Assembly: GCF_005869935.1 (NCBI RefSeq)
Contig: NZ_SZQF01000001.1
Location: 868,001 to 932,000, forward strand
Direction: 5' to 3'
DNA from: Winogradskyella algicola
GTDB taxonomy: Bacteria > Bacteroidota > Bacteroidia > Flavobacteriales > Flavobacteriaceae
DNA: 64,000 nucleotides
The translations under genes were made by a program, and so were the position numbers. Below, in pieces: positions 53,735 through 64,000 of the stretch. The notes beneath the pieces are model-generated. The model saw only the letters and a program-made list of their open reading frames with translations. It was not told where the DNA came from and ran no database searches. Every line of letters starts with the position of its first letter. The first letter of the stretch is position 1.

Positions 53735-54988
53735 TTACAAGCCAAAAGCTTCTTTTACTTTGTCTACATAGTCTAATTTTTCCCATGTAAATAGCTCTAC
53801 TTCCAAAGTTTTTGGTTCTCCATTTGGTTGTTGAAAGGTTTTAGTAACTACTTCGTTATGCCTTCCCATATGTCCATAAGCTGCGGTTTCGCTGTACATA
53901 GGTTGACGTAGTTTTAAACGTTCTTCAATAGCTGCTGGTCGCATATCAAAAATTTCTGAAACTTTTTTAGCAATTTCTCCATCTGTAAGATTGAATGGAC
54001 AAGTGCCGTAAGTGTCAATAAAAATCCCCATTGGTTCTACAACACCAATAGCATAAGACACTTGTACTAATACTTCTTCACAAACACCTGCAGCAACTAA
54101 GTTTTTTGCAATATGTCTTGTTGCATAGGCGGCACTGCGGTCTACCTTACTAGGGTCTTTTCCAGAAAATGCTCCACCACCATGTGCACCTTTTCCGCCA
54201 TAAGTATCAACAATTATTTTTCTACCAGTTAAACCTGTATCTCCATGAGGTCCACCTATTACAAATTTTCCTGTTGGATTGATGTGATATTTAATGTCAT
54301 TAGTAAATAGTGGTTTAATATGGTCTGGTACTTTTGCAACAACACGTGGCATTAAAATCTCAACAATATCTTTTCTGATTTTTGCCAACATTGCTTCATC
54401 GGTATCAAAGTTATCGTGCTGTGTAGAGATAACAATGGCATCGATACGCTGTGGTGTATTATCGTCATTATATTCTATAGTTACCTGACTTTTAGAATCT
54501 GGTCTTAAGTAGGTTATGTCTTTATTTTCACGACGAAGTGCAGCTAATTCTTTAAGTATCAGATGAGAAATGTCTAATGCGAGAGGCATATAGTTATTAG
54601 TCTCATTGGTGGCATAGCCAAACATCATACCTTGGTCGCCAGCACCTTGTTCTTCTTTACTTGCTCTGTCTACGCCTCTGTTAATGTCTTCAGATTGCTC
54701 GTGTATTGCAGAAATTACTCCACAAGAGTTACCGTCAAACATATACTCACCTTTGGTGTATCCGATTTTGTTTATGGTGTCTCTTGCTATTTGTTGTACA
54801 TCGAGATAGGTGTTAGATTTTACTTCACCAGCAAGAACAACTTGTCCTGTTGTTACTAAAGTTTCACAAGCTACTTTAGACTCTGGGTCAAAAGCTAAAA
54901 AATTATCAATCAATGCATCACTAATTTGATCTGCAATTTTATCTGGATGGCCTTCTGAGACACTTTCAGAAGTAAATAAATATGGCAT
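53735..54988 (-). CDS. metK: S-adenosylmethionine synthetase
   Basis: Makes S-adenosylmethionine from methionine and ATP. 417 residues with the N-terminal [20 protein letters not shown], the signature [12 protein letters not shown], and [20 protein letters not shown]. It is divergent from the metY-metX-hom operon. A SAM-II-like riboswitch candidate lies 72-122 nt upstream of its start, suggesting feedback by its own product. Confidence 0.97.
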
Positions 54989-55060
54989 AAATCCTATATT
55001 TTTTGGTTTGTTGTTTTAAAATTGTAAGATTGCTTGGTCGCTAGAGAAGTCTAAAACTAA

Positions 55061-55110
55061 CTGCTTTAGCATTTTTTAATGAGGTTGCAATCAGACAAAT
55101 TTTTCCTCTT
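55061..55110 (-). ncRNA. SAM-II-like riboswitch candidate upstream of metK
   Basis: On the minus strand, AAGAGG, then AAAAATTTGTCTGATTGCAA, then CCTCATTAAAAAATGCTAAA and GCAG. P1 would be GAGG (plus 55105-55108) with CCTC (plus 55081-55084). The 20-nt loop contains ATTTGTC...ATTGCA, and downstream comes ATTAAA then TGCTAAAG. This order matches my memory of the SAM-II (metA) H-type pseudoknot: a loop with AUUU..C..AUUGCA and a tail AGCUAAA. Its 50-nt size is also right. Location 5' of metK fits a SAM sensor. Not verified by a covariance model. Confidence 0.68.
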
Positions 55111-55365
55111 TATAAATCTTGGCAAAAATAAAGATTTTAATTAAGATAGAAAGACTCCAAATGATAATGAATTCATAAATTCTTAACGGTTTAATTTTTT
55201 ATTTACTGATCAATGGTGGGTGTAAGTGTTTGTTTTTAAGATTCTTATGTTTGGTGTTTGTGTTTTGGGTTTTGTTAAATATTTAAAAAATATCAGAAAT
55301 AATTTTGAATTTAAATTTTTGTATCGCAATATTTGTGCTCACAAAGTTCAAAACACTTACTGAAA

Positions 55366-55488
55366 TGTTATCAAGAAAGGTGGAGGGAATAGACCCTGTG
55401 AAGCCTTAGCAACCCTTAGACTTACTAAGAAGGTGCTAAATTCTACTTGAACACGCAAATCATTTCTTGCAGGTTCGGATAGATAACT
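55366..55488 (+). ncRNA. SAM-I (S-box) riboswitch controlling the methionine operon
   Basis: Classic S-box core: TTATCAAGAAAGGTGGAGGG (55368-55387), then ACCCTGTGAAGCCTTAGCAA (55393-55412), then AAGGTGCTAAATTCTAC (55430-55446) and the closing P1 GATAAC (55482-55487) pairing with GTTATC (55367-55372). SAM binding would lower expression of metY, metX and hom downstream. The element lies about 290 bp before the metY start codon. Confidence 0.93.
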
Positions 55489-55493
55489 CAAGA

Positions 55494-55525: not shown

Positions 55526-55775
55526 ATAACATTTTTCTATTAAGTACGCTTCAACAAAATGAAGCTTATTTGGCTTTTGGTTTAATCGTGCTATTTGTAG
55601 AATTGGATTGATGATAGGAAACAGATAGATTTTTTGATTAGACGAGAAATAAAAATTTAGCATAGCCTTAGTTATGGTCAATTTTTATTTTGAAGTATTA
55701 GTGAAAAAGAAGCTTTTTACTCCATTAATCTCGTTCTGCAAATGGCACTCATTATTAACTCAAAAACTTAGAAAA

Positions 55776-57068
55776 ATGAGTACACAAAAATTTGCAACAA
55801 AAGCGTTGCACGCAGGGCATGATGTAACAAACAATGGAGGAACAAGAGCAGTTCCAATTTATCAATCTACAGCTTATGTCTTTAATGACTCTGACCATGC
55901 TGCCAATTTATTCGCATTGGCAGAAACAGGCAACATTTATACCCGAATCAACAACCCAACAAACGATGTTTTAGAGCAACGTCTAGCAGCTTTAGAGGGA
56001 GGTATTGCAGCAGTAGTTACAGCATCTGGTACTTCTGCTATAGCAACATCATTACTTACACTTTTAAAGGCTGGAGATCACGTTGTAGCATCAAGCAGTT
56101 TGTATGGCGGAACCTATAATTTGCTGAGTGTAACATTGCCAAGACATGGTATCACTACGACTTTTGTAGATCCATCAAATCCAGAAAACTTTAAAAATGC
56201 TGCTCAAGAAAATACCAGAGCATTCTTTATAGAATCTCTCGGAAATCCGAAGTTAGATGTTTTAGATATCGAAGCAATTTCAAAAAAAGCGAAAGGATTT
56301 AAAGTACCATTAATTGTAGATAATACGGTAGCAACACCTTATTTGTTAAATCCAATAAAATATGGAGCTAACATCGTTATTCACTCGTTAACAAAGTACA
56401 TTAATGGCAATGGTACGGCACTTGGAGGTGTAATTATAGATGCAGGTACTTTTGATTGGACAAATGGAAAATTCCCAGAATTTACAGAGCCTTCACCTGG
56501 TTATCATGGTTTGGTGTATAGCGAAGCTTTAGAGGCAGCAGCATTTATTGCAAAAGTGAGAATTGAGGGGTTGAGAGATTATGGTGGAGCATTAAGTCCG
56601 TTTAATGCATTTCAAATCATTCAAGGTTTAGAGACCTTAGAATTACGAATAAAAAAACATAGCGAAAACGCACTGGAACTTGCCAAATGGCTAGAAGAGC
56701 AACCAGAAGTTTCATGGGTAAATTATCCTGGTTTAGAAACCAGTAAATACAAAGTTTTGGCAAAAAAATACTTGCCAAAAGGACAAAGTGGTATCGTAAC
56801 TTTTGGAGTTGATGGTGGCTATGACGCTGCAAAAATTATAGCTGATAAAACGAAGTTATTTTCGTTATTAGCCAATATTGGCGATACAAAATCTTTAATC
56901 ATTCATCCTGCAAGCACAACGCATCAGCAATTAAGCGATGAGGCGCAAGAAAGCACAGGAGTTACAAAAGACCTTATAAGGTTATCTGTTGGTATTGAGA
57001 ATGTTGAAGATCTAAAAGCCGATTTAAAAGAGGCATTTCAATTAATAACAAAGCCTCAATTGGCTTAA
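55776..57068 (+). CDS. metY: O-acetylhomoserine sulfhydrylase
   Basis: PLP enzyme that makes homocysteine (or methionine precursor) from O-acetylhomoserine and sulfide. I chose the ATG at 55776 (MSTQKFATKALHAGHD): this gives 430 residues, the usual family length; the in-frame start at 55674 adds 34 unlikely residues. The PLP Lys lies in VIHSLTKYINGNG. Other blocks are YQSTAYVFNDSDHAANLF, YTRINNPTNDVLEQRLAALE and GYHGLVYSEALE. First gene of the SAM-I-controlled operon. Confidence 0.94.
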   Translation: MSTQKFATKALHAGHDVTNNGGTRAVPIYQSTAYVFNDSDHAANLFALAETGNIYTRINNPTNDVLEQRLAALEGGIAAVVTASGTSAIATSLLTLLKAGDHVVASSSLYGGTYNLLSVTLPRHGITTTFVDPSNPENFKNAAQENTRAFFIESLGNPKLDVLDIEAISKKAKGFKVPLIVDNTVATPYLLNPIKYGANIVIHSLTKYINGNGTALGGVIIDAGTFDWTNGKFPEFTEPSPGYHGLVYSEALEAAAFIAKVRIEGLRDYGGALSPFNAFQIIQGLETLELRIKKHSENALELAKWLEEQPEVSWVNYPGLETSKYKVLAKKYLPKGQSGIVTFGVDGGYDAAKIIADKTKLFSLLANIGDTKSLIIHPASTTHQQLSDEAQESTGVTKDLIRLSVGIENVEDLKADLKEAFQLITKPQLA

Positions 57069-57163
57069 TCTCTTTTTGTATTAGTGTTGTTTAATTAAGC
57101 TGGGCGACTAGACTATCGTTCAGCTTAATTTGAAAATTTTTAGAGAAGAAAAAAATTACAATT

Positions 57164-58180
57164 ATGAGTGTACTTAAATTTATTGAGATAGATCATTTTG
57201 AGTTGTGTAGTGGCAGAAACATTAGCCTTAGATTGTCGTATCAAGTATTCGGAAAACCATTAGGAAACAACCCAATAGTATTAGTAAATCATGCTTTAAC
57301 AGGGAATTCTCAAGTAACAGGAAAAAATGGCTGGTGGAATGATATTGTTGGTAAAGGTAAGGTTATAGATACGGACGTCTATACGGTTTTAGCGTTTAAT
57401 GTACCAGGTAATGGGTTTGGCGGATTAGAAGAATCTTTTTTAGAATATTATAAAGAATTTACAGCAAGAGATGTGGCTCGTATTCTTTCTGAAGGACTAA
57501 ATCGTTTAAAGATTAATGTTTTATACGCTATCGTTGGCGCATCTGTTGGTGGCGGTATTACTTGGGAGTTGGCAGCATTGCGACCAAATTTGGCAGAATA
57601 TGTAATTCCAATAGCTACAGACTGGAAATCTACCGACTGGGTAATTGGTAATTGTTTTATTCAAGATGAAATATTAAACCACTCGTCTCAACCACTTTTT
57701 GATGCCAGATTGCATGCCATGACGTTTTACAGAACGCCAGAATCTTTTGCTTCAAAATTTAAAAGAGAAAAACAACGAAAAGATGCTTTTAAAATTGAAA
57801 CCTGGTTGGCGCATCATGGAGAAAAACTAGAAGGAAGATTTGAATTGTCAGCTTACAAAATGATGAATCAAATTTTAAAAATTATCGATATTACACAAGG
57901 CAGAGCCTCGTTTACCGAAGTAGCAAAAAGCATTGCTTCTCACATTCATATTATAACAATTAATTCAGATTTATTATTTAAATCAGACGAAAACTGGAAC
58001 ACGTTTGTAGAGCTAAAATCAGTAAAAGAAAACGTTAGTATTGGTGAACTAAAATCTAATGATGGTCACGATGCTTTTTTAATAGAGTATCAGCAGCTCA
58101 TTAAGCTATTGAAACCAGTTTTTAATTTAAAATTACAAGAACATGACAACCATACATCTAGCTATATTCGGAATTGGTAA
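57164..58180 (+). CDS. metX: Homoserine O-acetyltransferase-like alpha/beta hydrolase
   Basis: Activates homoserine by acylation, supplying the substrate of the upstream sulfhydrylase. 338 residues, slightly short for MetX. The nucleophile is S127 in IVGASVGGG, with D269 (INSDLLF) and H302 (NDGHDAFL) completing the triad. NHALTGNSQVTG supplies the oxyanion region. Its last 38 bp overlap the start of hom, implying coupled translation. Acyl donor (acetyl or succinyl) is inferred from family and from the O-acetylhomoserine-type partner. Confidence 0.92.
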   Translation: MSVLKFIEIDHFELCSGRNISLRLSYQVFGKPLGNNPIVLVNHALTGNSQVTGKNGWWNDIVGKGKVIDTDVYTVLAFNVPGNGFGGLEESFLEYYKEFTARDVARILSEGLNRLKINVLYAIVGASVGGGITWELAALRPNLAEYVIPIATDWKSTDWVIGNCFIQDEILNHSSQPLFDARLHAMTFYRTPESFASKFKREKQRKDAFKIETWLAHHGEKLEGRFELSAYKMMNQILKIIDITQGRASFTEVAKSIASHIHIITINSDLLFKSDENWNTFVELKSVKENVSIGELKSNDGHDAFLIEYQQLIKLLKPVFNLKLQEHDNHTSSYIRNW

Positions 58181-59237
58181 TGTAGGCTCTACGTTAATCA
58201 ATCAAATTCAACAGCAAAAACGAAAAATCTATAAGCATCAGGATTTAGATATTCAAATACCTGTAATTGCAAATTCAGCCTTGGCATTTTTTGCTAATGA
58301 TACTTTAGGCGAATGGGAGGTGGATTTTGAAAAAGTTTCAGAGCCTTATAACATTAAAGATATAATCAATCATTTTAAGGCTTTAGGAGTAGAACATGCT
58401 ATCGCAATTGATGCTACAGCAAGTGCTGGTTTTGTTGAGAATTATACCTCACTCATAGAGAACGGTTTTCATATCATTGCTGCAAACAAGATTGCTAATA
58501 CTCTAGATTATAATTTTTATAAAGACTTACGAAAAGTATTAAATCAGAACAATAAAAAATTTTTATACGAGACTAATGTTTGCGCTGGATTACCAATTGT
58601 AGAGACTGTTAGAAATCTGCATCAATCAGGCGAAGAAATCCGCAAAATAAAAGGTGTGTTTTCAGGATCGTTGAGTTATATTTTTAATACCTTTTCTCAG
58701 CAAACAAAACCATTTCATGAGGTTTTAGATAATGCGGTAAAATTAGGGTTAACAGAACCAGATCCACGAGACGATTTATCTGGTAAAGACGTGGCAAGAA
58801 AACTCTTGATTTTAGCAAGAGAATTGGACTTAAAAGTAGAACTTAGTAGTATAAGCATAACCTCTTTGGTGCCTAAAAAGCTAAATGGATCTACAACTTT
58901 AAGTGAGTTTAAAGAACGTGCTTTTGAGTTAGATGACAGTATAAAAACAAGTACGGTAAAACAAAATAAAGACACTGTTTTACGGTACATTGGCGAACTA
59001 GATGTGCTAAAAAACACCTTAGAAGTGAAGCTTGTTTCTGTGCCTAAGGCTTCAACTTTAGGACAGTTAAAAGGTACCGATAACCTTATTGAAATTTATA
59101 CAGAATCGTATAATGAGCAACCATTAGTAATTCAAGGCGCAGGTGCAGGTAAGGCGGTAACCGCAAGAGGTGTGCTTTCGGATATTCTTAAACTTTGTGC
59201 GCATTTACAAAAGGTTAATGTACACAGTTTTAATTAA
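58143..59237 (+). CDS. hom: Homoserine dehydrogenase
   Basis: Reduces aspartate semialdehyde to homoserine, feeding metX. 364 residues, like the dehydrogenase half of bifunctional ThrA, without a kinase part. The nucleotide-binding FGIGNVGSTL is at 9-18; other blocks are AANKIANTL, ETNVCAGLPIVETVRNL and EPDPRDDLSGKDVARKLLIL. No ACT domain is present, consistent with control by the riboswitch. Third gene of the metY-metX-hom operon. Confidence 0.94.
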   Translation: MTTIHLAIFGIGNVGSTLINQIQQQKRKIYKHQDLDIQIPVIANSALAFFANDTLGEWEVDFEKVSEPYNIKDIINHFKALGVEHAIAIDATASAGFVENYTSLIENGFHIIAANKIANTLDYNFYKDLRKVLNQNNKKFLYETNVCAGLPIVETVRNLHQSGEEIRKIKGVFSGSLSYIFNTFSQQTKPFHEVLDNAVKLGLTEPDPRDDLSGKDVARKLLILARELDLKVELSSISITSLVPKKLNGSTTLSEFKERAFELDDSIKTSTVKQNKDTVLRYIGELDVLKNTLEVKLVSVPKASTLGQLKGTDNLIEIYTESYNEQPLVIQGAGAGKAVTARGVLSDILKLCAHLQKVNVHSFN

Positions 59238-63682: not shown

Positions 63683-63837
63683 TTTTTAAATAATTTAATT
63701 GATAGTATTTGGGGCTTGCTAACATGCCTTTAAATTTTAAAAGGCAGGCAAAAATAATCAATATCTAATTCCACACATAGATTATTACAAAATCTTTAAA
63801 ATTTTATTAATGGCTCAAAAAAGAGTTCTCAACAATT

Positions 63838-63866
63838 TTGATTTGTGAAAATATTATTTACTTTAG
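63838..63866 (+). promoter_or_regulatory. Promoter of the aromatic leader transcript
   Basis: TTG (63838-63840), an 18-bp spacer and TACTTTAG (63859-63866, seven of eight to the TAnnTTTG consensus). It ends 12 bp before the leader-peptide ATG, implying a very short 5' untranslated region. Confidence 0.5.
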
Positions 63867-63878
63867 CCTTATCGAATT

Positions 63879-63947
63879 ATGACAAATACATCTAGAGCAT
63901 ATTATAACTGGTTTTATTTCTTTTTTAACGAAAGAAACGAGGCTTAG
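63879..63947 (+). CDS. Aromatic-rich leader peptide (attenuator)
   Basis: 22-codon frame: MTNTSRAYYNWFYFFFNERN then EA and TAG. Residues 8-16 hold eight aromatic residues out of nine (Y, Y, W, F, Y, F, F, F), encoded TAT TAT AAC TGG TTT TAT TTC TTT TTT. Such a run is a hallmark of leader peptides that sense charged tRNA-Phe/Tyr/Trp. The 3' end (CGAGGCTT, 63938-63945) can pair with the left arm of the downstream terminator. The regulated gene would lie beyond the window's right edge. Confidence 0.72.
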   Translation: MTNTSRAYYNWFYFFFNERNEA

Positions 63948-64000
63948 TATATTTTAGTGAATAAAATATAAGTTTAAAAAAGTCTCGAATTATTCGAGAC
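63948..64000 (+). terminator. Attenuator hairpins, cut by the window edge
   Basis: A weak stem TATATTTTA/TAAAATATA (63948-63956 with 63962-63970) precedes the stronger GTCTCGAA/TTCGAGAC hairpin (63982-63989 with 63993-64000), 5'-flanked by six A. AAGTCTCG (63980-63987) can alternatively pair with CGAGGCTT of the leader (63938-63945, one G-U). The T-run expected after the terminator lies outside the window. Confidence 0.65.

Follow-up and report, generated by a model that had tools for sequence, protein, structure and literature searches.

The right-hand end of the window (the whole 64,000-nucleotide stretch of Winogradskyella algicola DNA analyzed here) carries a very short reading frame crowded with aromatic codons and, behind it, a strong hairpin that runs over the window edge. 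Does this arrangement form a regulatory leader and, if so, which genes does it serve and which amino acids does it sense? The initial annotation read it as phe/trp-type attenuation. That reading is supported by the leader, the structures, their conservation, the geometry and the downstream genes, and we conclude that the locus is very probably a ribosome-mediated transcription attenuator of an aromatic amino acid operon. The conclusion was reached from sequence and comparison, drawing on the leader, the terminator, an alternative pairing, covariation, geometry and gene content. The attenuator is best read as a sensor of Phe and Tyr, and usually also of Trp.

In the proposed mechanism, scarcity of charged Phe-, Tyr- (and Trp-) tRNA would stall the leader-translating ribosome in the aromatic run, the downstream codons CGAGGCTT would be left free to pair with the left arm of the terminator, and RNA polymerase would proceed into the operon. 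With charged tRNAs available, the ribosome would reach the leader stop codon and cover CGAGGCTT, the terminator would fold, and transcription would stop before pheA. Stalling in the aromatic run and termination that responds to aromatic amino acids are both predicted from the sequence.

Leader peptide gene and alternative structures at the locus

The leader peptide gene occupies positions 63879-63947 of the forward strand (22 codons, MTNTSRAYYNWFYFFFNERNEA), where a 22-codon frame with eight aromatics in nine positions had been annotated. Its residues 8-16, encoded at 63900-63926 (+), comprise four Phe, three Tyr and one Trp, and the frame is presumably translated. The promoter annotated upstream corresponds to a promoter-like element at 63836-63866 (+), read directly as TTTTG (63836-63840), an 18-nt spacer and TACTTTAG (63859-63866), which we take to be of Bacteroidota type. 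A similar -7 motif lies 5' of the leader in 117 of 125 relatives, compared with 331 of 2500 mononucleotide-shuffled upstreams.

Three further regions of the forward strand make up the putative switch, and we number them as in classical attenuators. Region 2 (63938-63945, CGAGGCTT), the 5' strand of the antiterminator, pairs in the fold with AAGTCTCG (63980-63987) through 8 bp that include one G-U, at the places where this complementarity had been noted; the pairing is also examined below for covariation in 125 relatives. Region 3 (63977-63989), the left arm of the terminator, is common to both structures. Region 4, the right arm, extends from 63993 to 64000 and on to 64005 past the window edge and is followed by CTTTTTC (together L002 994-1013). 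The hairpin seen at the edge is real and longer than is visible in the window, with 13 bp over 63977-64005 (L002 978-1006), -14.8 kcal/mol and a z score of -4.8. Beyond the window end it closes and continues into TTTTTCTTTTT, so that the T-run sought after position 64000 is found right behind it.

An A+T-rich hairpin (63948-63970, +) is folded between regions 2 and 3, nested in the antiterminator. Hairpins of at least 5 bp occur there in 119 of 125 relatives and in 1046 of 1250 shuffled spacers, and the real spacers fold about 1.8 kcal/mol more stably on average. As this is only weakly above the shuffled spacers, the inner hairpin is not claimed as a conserved element.

Conservation of the leader and covariation of the structures

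The family set consisted of 149 genomes, one per genus, of which 130 contain a prephenate dehydratase gene, and all 130 upstream regions were read. A leader ORF with at least five aromatics in nine residues lies within 500 nt upstream of pheA in 125 of them (at least seven in nine in 117 leaders, six in 7, five in 1), which bears out the conservation of aromatic codons that the initial annotation had proposed to check. Two of the other five have a leader visible by eye: in G048 the upstream region is cut by a contig end, and in G013 (L026) the leader stands at 646 nt, behind repeats. No leader was seen in G023, G035 (379 nt available) and G128, i.e. in 3 of the 130 family genomes. A second set of 80 named loci, which overlaps the family genomes in part (some records are identical), has at least six aromatics in nine within 450 nt in 77; contig ends truncate L079 and L083, and in L113 (Gelidibacter) the leader is at 539 nt. 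In both L026 and L113, repeats between the terminator and pheA displace an intact-looking attenuator to these distances of 646 and 539 nt.

Chance occurrence was assessed with 128 of the 130 upstreams, the two shorter than 400 nt being left out. A level of at least seven aromatics in nine was reached by 117 of the 128 real sequences, by 1 of their 128 reverse complements and by 13 of 1280 dinucleotide-shuffled versions. The cut at five in nine does not discriminate (125 of 128, 20 of 128 and 330 of 1280, respectively), and because shuffles reach it so often the strength of the result lies in the seven-in-nine class and in the structures.

Codon changes in the leader cores were compared across 100 near-neighbor pairs with 217 differing codons. 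Synonymous changes make up 47% (16% expected from random single changes), aromatic-to-aromatic changes 29% (6% expected) and aromatic-to-other changes 11% (64% expected), the last observed figure being somewhat lowered by the choice of cores as aromatic-rich. Judged by these changes, the selected property of the leader codons is that of being aromatic. The N-terminus and the length of the leader vary among relatives, and the distance from the leader start to the T-run is 116-150 nt in the 125 relatives.

All 125 relatives have a T-run behind a hairpin that contains three or more G-C pairs. Applied to 1000 dinucleotide-shuffled stretches, the same rule gave any match in 108 and reached the lowest real score in 7. 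In alignment A1, 96.1% of terminator cells are paired (90.2% after shuffling) and two-sided changes are seen for 8 of the 9 pairs; none of 500 shuffles equalled the alignment on any of five measures. The mutually exclusive antiterminator that uses the left arm of the terminator is likewise found, although some measures are weaker. Its cells are paired at 82.3% against 77.3% shuffled, a level that 0 of 500 shuffles attained, and slid registers give at most 46.6%. Its clearest pair, column 79:154, is AU in 68, GC in 50, GU in 4 and unpaired in 3 of the 125 relatives, and in several lineages region 2 and both arms change jointly (e.g. GGGACT/GTCCCG and CCGGGTT/AACCCGG). On the weaker side, two of its eight pairs (columns 83 and 84) hold in about half of the genomes, the count of pairs with two-sided changes is matched by 46 of 500 shuffles and the pair-type count by 7 of 500, and a slide of -2 yields more two-sided cells than the true register (91 vs 79), though with just 46.6% of cells paired. 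The covariation that the initial annotation had suggested looking for in the two stems is therefore clear for the terminator and also present, less cleanly, for the antiterminator.

Scores for pairing between the leader tail and the arm averaged 17.5 for own tails, 16.8 for tails swapped within the same terminator class and 11.4 for shuffled tails; a score of at least 13 was reached by 122 of 125 own tails, half of the swaps from other classes and 22% of shuffled tails. Since swapped tails score nearly as well as own tails, much of the match between regions 2 and 3 reflects conservation rather than covariation.

The two structures also differ in their use of wobble. Where the left arm has U, the partner in the terminator (columns 154:174) is split almost evenly between G and A (35 vs 37), and the partner in the antiterminator (columns 79:154) is A in 68 and G in 4. 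By these counts, the terminator tolerates wobble at left-arm position 154 and the antiterminator avoids it.

The same hairpin might act partly or mainly on translation, blocking ribosome loading at pheA when formed, with the leader controlling translation instead. We regard this as improbable but the best of the alternatives. In its favor, a simple start rule places pheA no more than 12 nt from the right arm in 37 of 125 relatives (13 of these starts are ATT and doubtful). The invariable T-run after the hairpin argues for termination, however, as does a pheA start more than 40 nt away in 33 of 125 relatives; here pheA is listed as starting at L002 1122, with 115 nt separating it from the hairpin.

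Spread outside the family could be estimated only roughly, as subsets were examined: the gene counts in the wider sets were 172 of 198 and 43 of 148 genomes, and the genomes with loci or fetched stretches were read. Among other families of the class and order, at least seven aromatics in nine occur within 700-800 nt in 22 of 34 examined genomes with prephenate dehydratase (all 22 among the 32 genomes that belong to the class but not the order, none among the 2 of the same order). The 22 leader-bearing genomes belong to eight other families; 21 have a hairpin and T-run by the same rule, with one, L296, low-scoring, and 21 have a tail-to-arm pairing of at least 13, L300 having none under the loop limit used. 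In the phylum outside the class, at least six aromatics in nine were found in 0 of 33 examined genomes. Within the present genome, model R1 scored 88.3 bits on its own site and at most 39.6 bits on 15 weak matches, one of which is the opposite strand of that site. Nine of the weak matches that were fetched as possible further copies (L266-L274) look like plain terminators, with no ORF of at least six aromatics in nine within 120 nt of the locus centre.

Ribosome geometry and folding

If translation controls the switch, region 2 should lie where a stalled ribosome would free it and a terminating one would cover it, the logic that the initial annotation set out. Region 2 starts 9-12 nt past the last aromatic codon in 109 of 125 relatives, compared with 282 of 2500 shuffled tails. 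The ribosome was assumed to cover 16 nt on the 5' side and 12 nt on the 3' side of the first base in the A-site codon. With the last aromatic codon in the A site, it would then leave 5 nt or more of region 2 uncovered in 123 of 125 relatives (all of it in 93), and at the stop codon it would leave fewer than 4 nt uncovered in 121 of 125 (none in 104). The geometry thus agrees with the annotated logic, under that assumption.

Folding of the exposed RNA before the right arm exists gave the 2:3 pairing in 124 of 125 relatives in the stalled state and in 0 of 125 in the stop state, in which the full terminator then formed in 125 of 125; these counts are partly circular because region 2 was picked as the best pairing, and independent checks on it are the scores of shuffled tails (11.4 vs 17.5) and their positions. 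The antiterminator and terminator are close in mean energy (-13.6 and -13.9), with the terminator stronger in 60 of 125. At equilibrium, with the stalled ribosome masked and the full terminator present, the 2:3 pairing was kept in just 14 of 125 folds, and therefore the switch would have to be kinetic. Classical attenuators likewise switch kinetically. With no ribosome, 2:3 formed before the right arm in 83 of 125 folds, and in 124 of 125 the full-length RNA folded into the terminator.

Pairing of region 2 with the upstream leader (1:2) was not above shuffles (9.2 vs 9.7). A different pairing was seen at 63917-63937 of the window and in relatives, where Phe codons can pair with purine-rich codons just 5' of region 2; it scored 15.2, compared with 12.6 for shuffled and 13.7 for swapped partners, and is possibly a pause hairpin.

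The short ORF might instead encode a functional small protein, the hairpin merely terminating its transcript. The strong codon-level constraint would fit this as well, but it is a very unlikely explanation, given the free exchange of Phe and Tyr, the variable N-terminus and length, the covariation of the tail with the terminator arm, and a stop codon that moves around region 2 (4 leaders end before it and 107 just after). Equally unlikely is that the attenuator is a relic in this strain. That view draws on an insertion between the terminator and pheA, about 110 nt extra in comparison with Winogradskyella marincola, and on a TTG start in place of ATG; set against it are an identical leader peptide and an intact terminator stem in the same comparison, in which the prephenate dehydratases are 88% identical.

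The insertion itself (L002 1013-1121, about 110 bases past the window end) is absent in W. marincola, which also has ATG at the pheA start where TTG is found here. Within it is a GAGCGNAGTCGAAGTG repeat, of which the genome contains 20 exact copies, 8 in forward and 12 in reverse orientation.

Downstream operon, amino acids sensed and known systems

The prediction that a gene of aromatic biosynthesis would follow to the right proved correct, as the next four genes form a pheA-led operon encoding a prephenate dehydratase (PF00800, 188 bits), a class I/II aminotransferase, a prephenate dehydrogenase and a DAHP synthase-chorismate mutase fusion. The domains PDT, PDH_N, PDH_C, DAHP_synth_1, CM_2 and Aminotran_1_2 are all above Pfam cut-offs. 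With NCBIfam, the prephenate dehydrogenase alone passes a curated cut-off; the other best matches agree in kind below theirs, and those of the aminotransferase do not fix one substrate.

The DAHP synthase of the operon is the sole one detected in this genome: the second PF00793 match is a KDO8P synthase by NCBIfam, and PF01474 has zero matches here or in any of the 149 genomes. As the operon holds the sole detected entry enzyme of the pathway, its control would have to take account of each of the three end products, and a Trp codon in the leader would fit that need. The trp branch has its own leader in the same genome, an RF01692 site (64.1 bits, leader MKTITNHTWWWNFANARS) before a trpE-like gene that is below the NCBIfam cut-off. 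The 125 leaders together contain 664 Phe, 442 Tyr and 86 Trp codons, with Phe and Tyr in all and Trp in 85, so that Trp sensing is not general, 40 leaders being without it. A logic of Phe, Tyr and usually Trp suits an operon with the only DAHP synthase detected.

Of 60 genomes searched for tyrA, 48 have the gene, and in 47 of these it sits no more than 3 kb downstream of pheA. The remaining one, G023, belongs to the three family genomes without a seen leader; of the other two, G035 with its 379-nt upstream has tyrA adjacent and G128 was outside the tyrA search. The one case of G023 is suggestive of a leader that tracks the operon.

The E. coli pheA (pheL) and trp attenuators resemble this locus in having a leader ORF whose codons specify the pathway product, competing 2:3 and 3:4 hairpins, a T-run and biosynthetic genes behind it. 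They differ in that the codons here are for Phe, Tyr and usually Trp, not for one amino acid, and that no clear 1:2 pairing is found here. The E. coli ilv and thr leaders likewise place codons for multiple products of a common pathway in a single leader, but for other amino acids and other operons.

Rfam offers no family that matches the locus at gathering score. On the coding strand, Phe_leader (RF01859) reached 25.3 of the 55 bits required, and rimP, AbsR25 and Phe_leader matches, all below cut-offs and on the hairpin-plus-T stretch, were rejected as evidence of Rfam membership. RF01692 did not match the pheA locus even with E values up to 1, nor the loci of 17 relatives at gathering score. 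Control of the terminator by a leader that binds a metabolite, tRNA or protein (riboswitch, T-box or TRAP-like) is the least credible alternative. In its favor is a terminator upstream of an amino-acid operon; against it are the lack of any Rfam match at gathering score, here or in the 17 relatives' loci, and the span of 116-150 nt from leader start to T-run. Alignment A1 and model R1 define a candidate RNA family that no Rfam 15 model matched at gathering score in these loci.

Returning to the attenuator, the initial annotation had called such control little described in this phylum, which has to be qualified. The Bacteroid-trp RNA (RF01692) is a known Bacteroidetes motif (Weinberg 2010, PMC2864571) with one example in this genome, different though in codons, arms and operon, and short ORFs resembling leader peptides are mentioned for Bacteroides 5' UTRs (PMC7366714). 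A 2021 transcriptome study of F. psychrophilum (PMC9723704) reports strong indications that amino-acid operons are attenuated through leader peptides, and also a structured element 5' of pheA that is common to other Flavobacteriaceae genera and lacks an Rfam match; the section on it presents neither a leader sequence for pheA nor an alternative pairing or an analysis of codons. Attenuation of this class is textbook knowledge, and because that study already reports the pheA element and attenuation, this attenuator has been reported in part before. A literature search joining leader peptide, pheA, Bacteroid and attenuator found no paper. New here are the leader code, the alternative pairing with its covariation, the geometry, the link to a sole DAHP synthase and the wider spread.

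Ribosome-mediated attenuation works only with a ribosome close behind RNA polymerase. As the attenuator needs such a ribosome and spans many genera, its constrained and covarying form is indirect evidence for transcription-translation coupling in the class, and it offers a ready reporter for probing that coupling.

A broader proposal, which we put forward tentatively and consider less probable than its negation, is that of a pan-aromatic attenuator, old in the class Bacteroidia, which would gate the cell's only DAHP synthase without a 1:2 protector and would work from a short 5' UTR without Shine-Dalgarno initiation. With no protector hairpin, its default in the absence of leader translation would be read-through; the E. 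coli trp leader has the opposite default. On this point the ribosome-free folds give a mixed picture, with early 2:3 pairing in 83 of 125 but the terminator in 124 of 125 at full length. If true, it would mean that transcription and translation are tightly coupled in class Bacteroidia. The ribosomes of the class do not recognize Shine-Dalgarno sequences (PMC9976891, PMC6847099).

Elsewhere in the window, two riboswitch classes stand back to back. A SAM-II riboswitch (55056-55114, -; 69.2 bits) precedes a putative metK (53735-54988, -), and a SAM/S-box riboswitch (55365-55489, +; 75 bits) precedes putative methionine-synthesis genes (55674-59237, +), the gene names having been assigned by reading the proteins.
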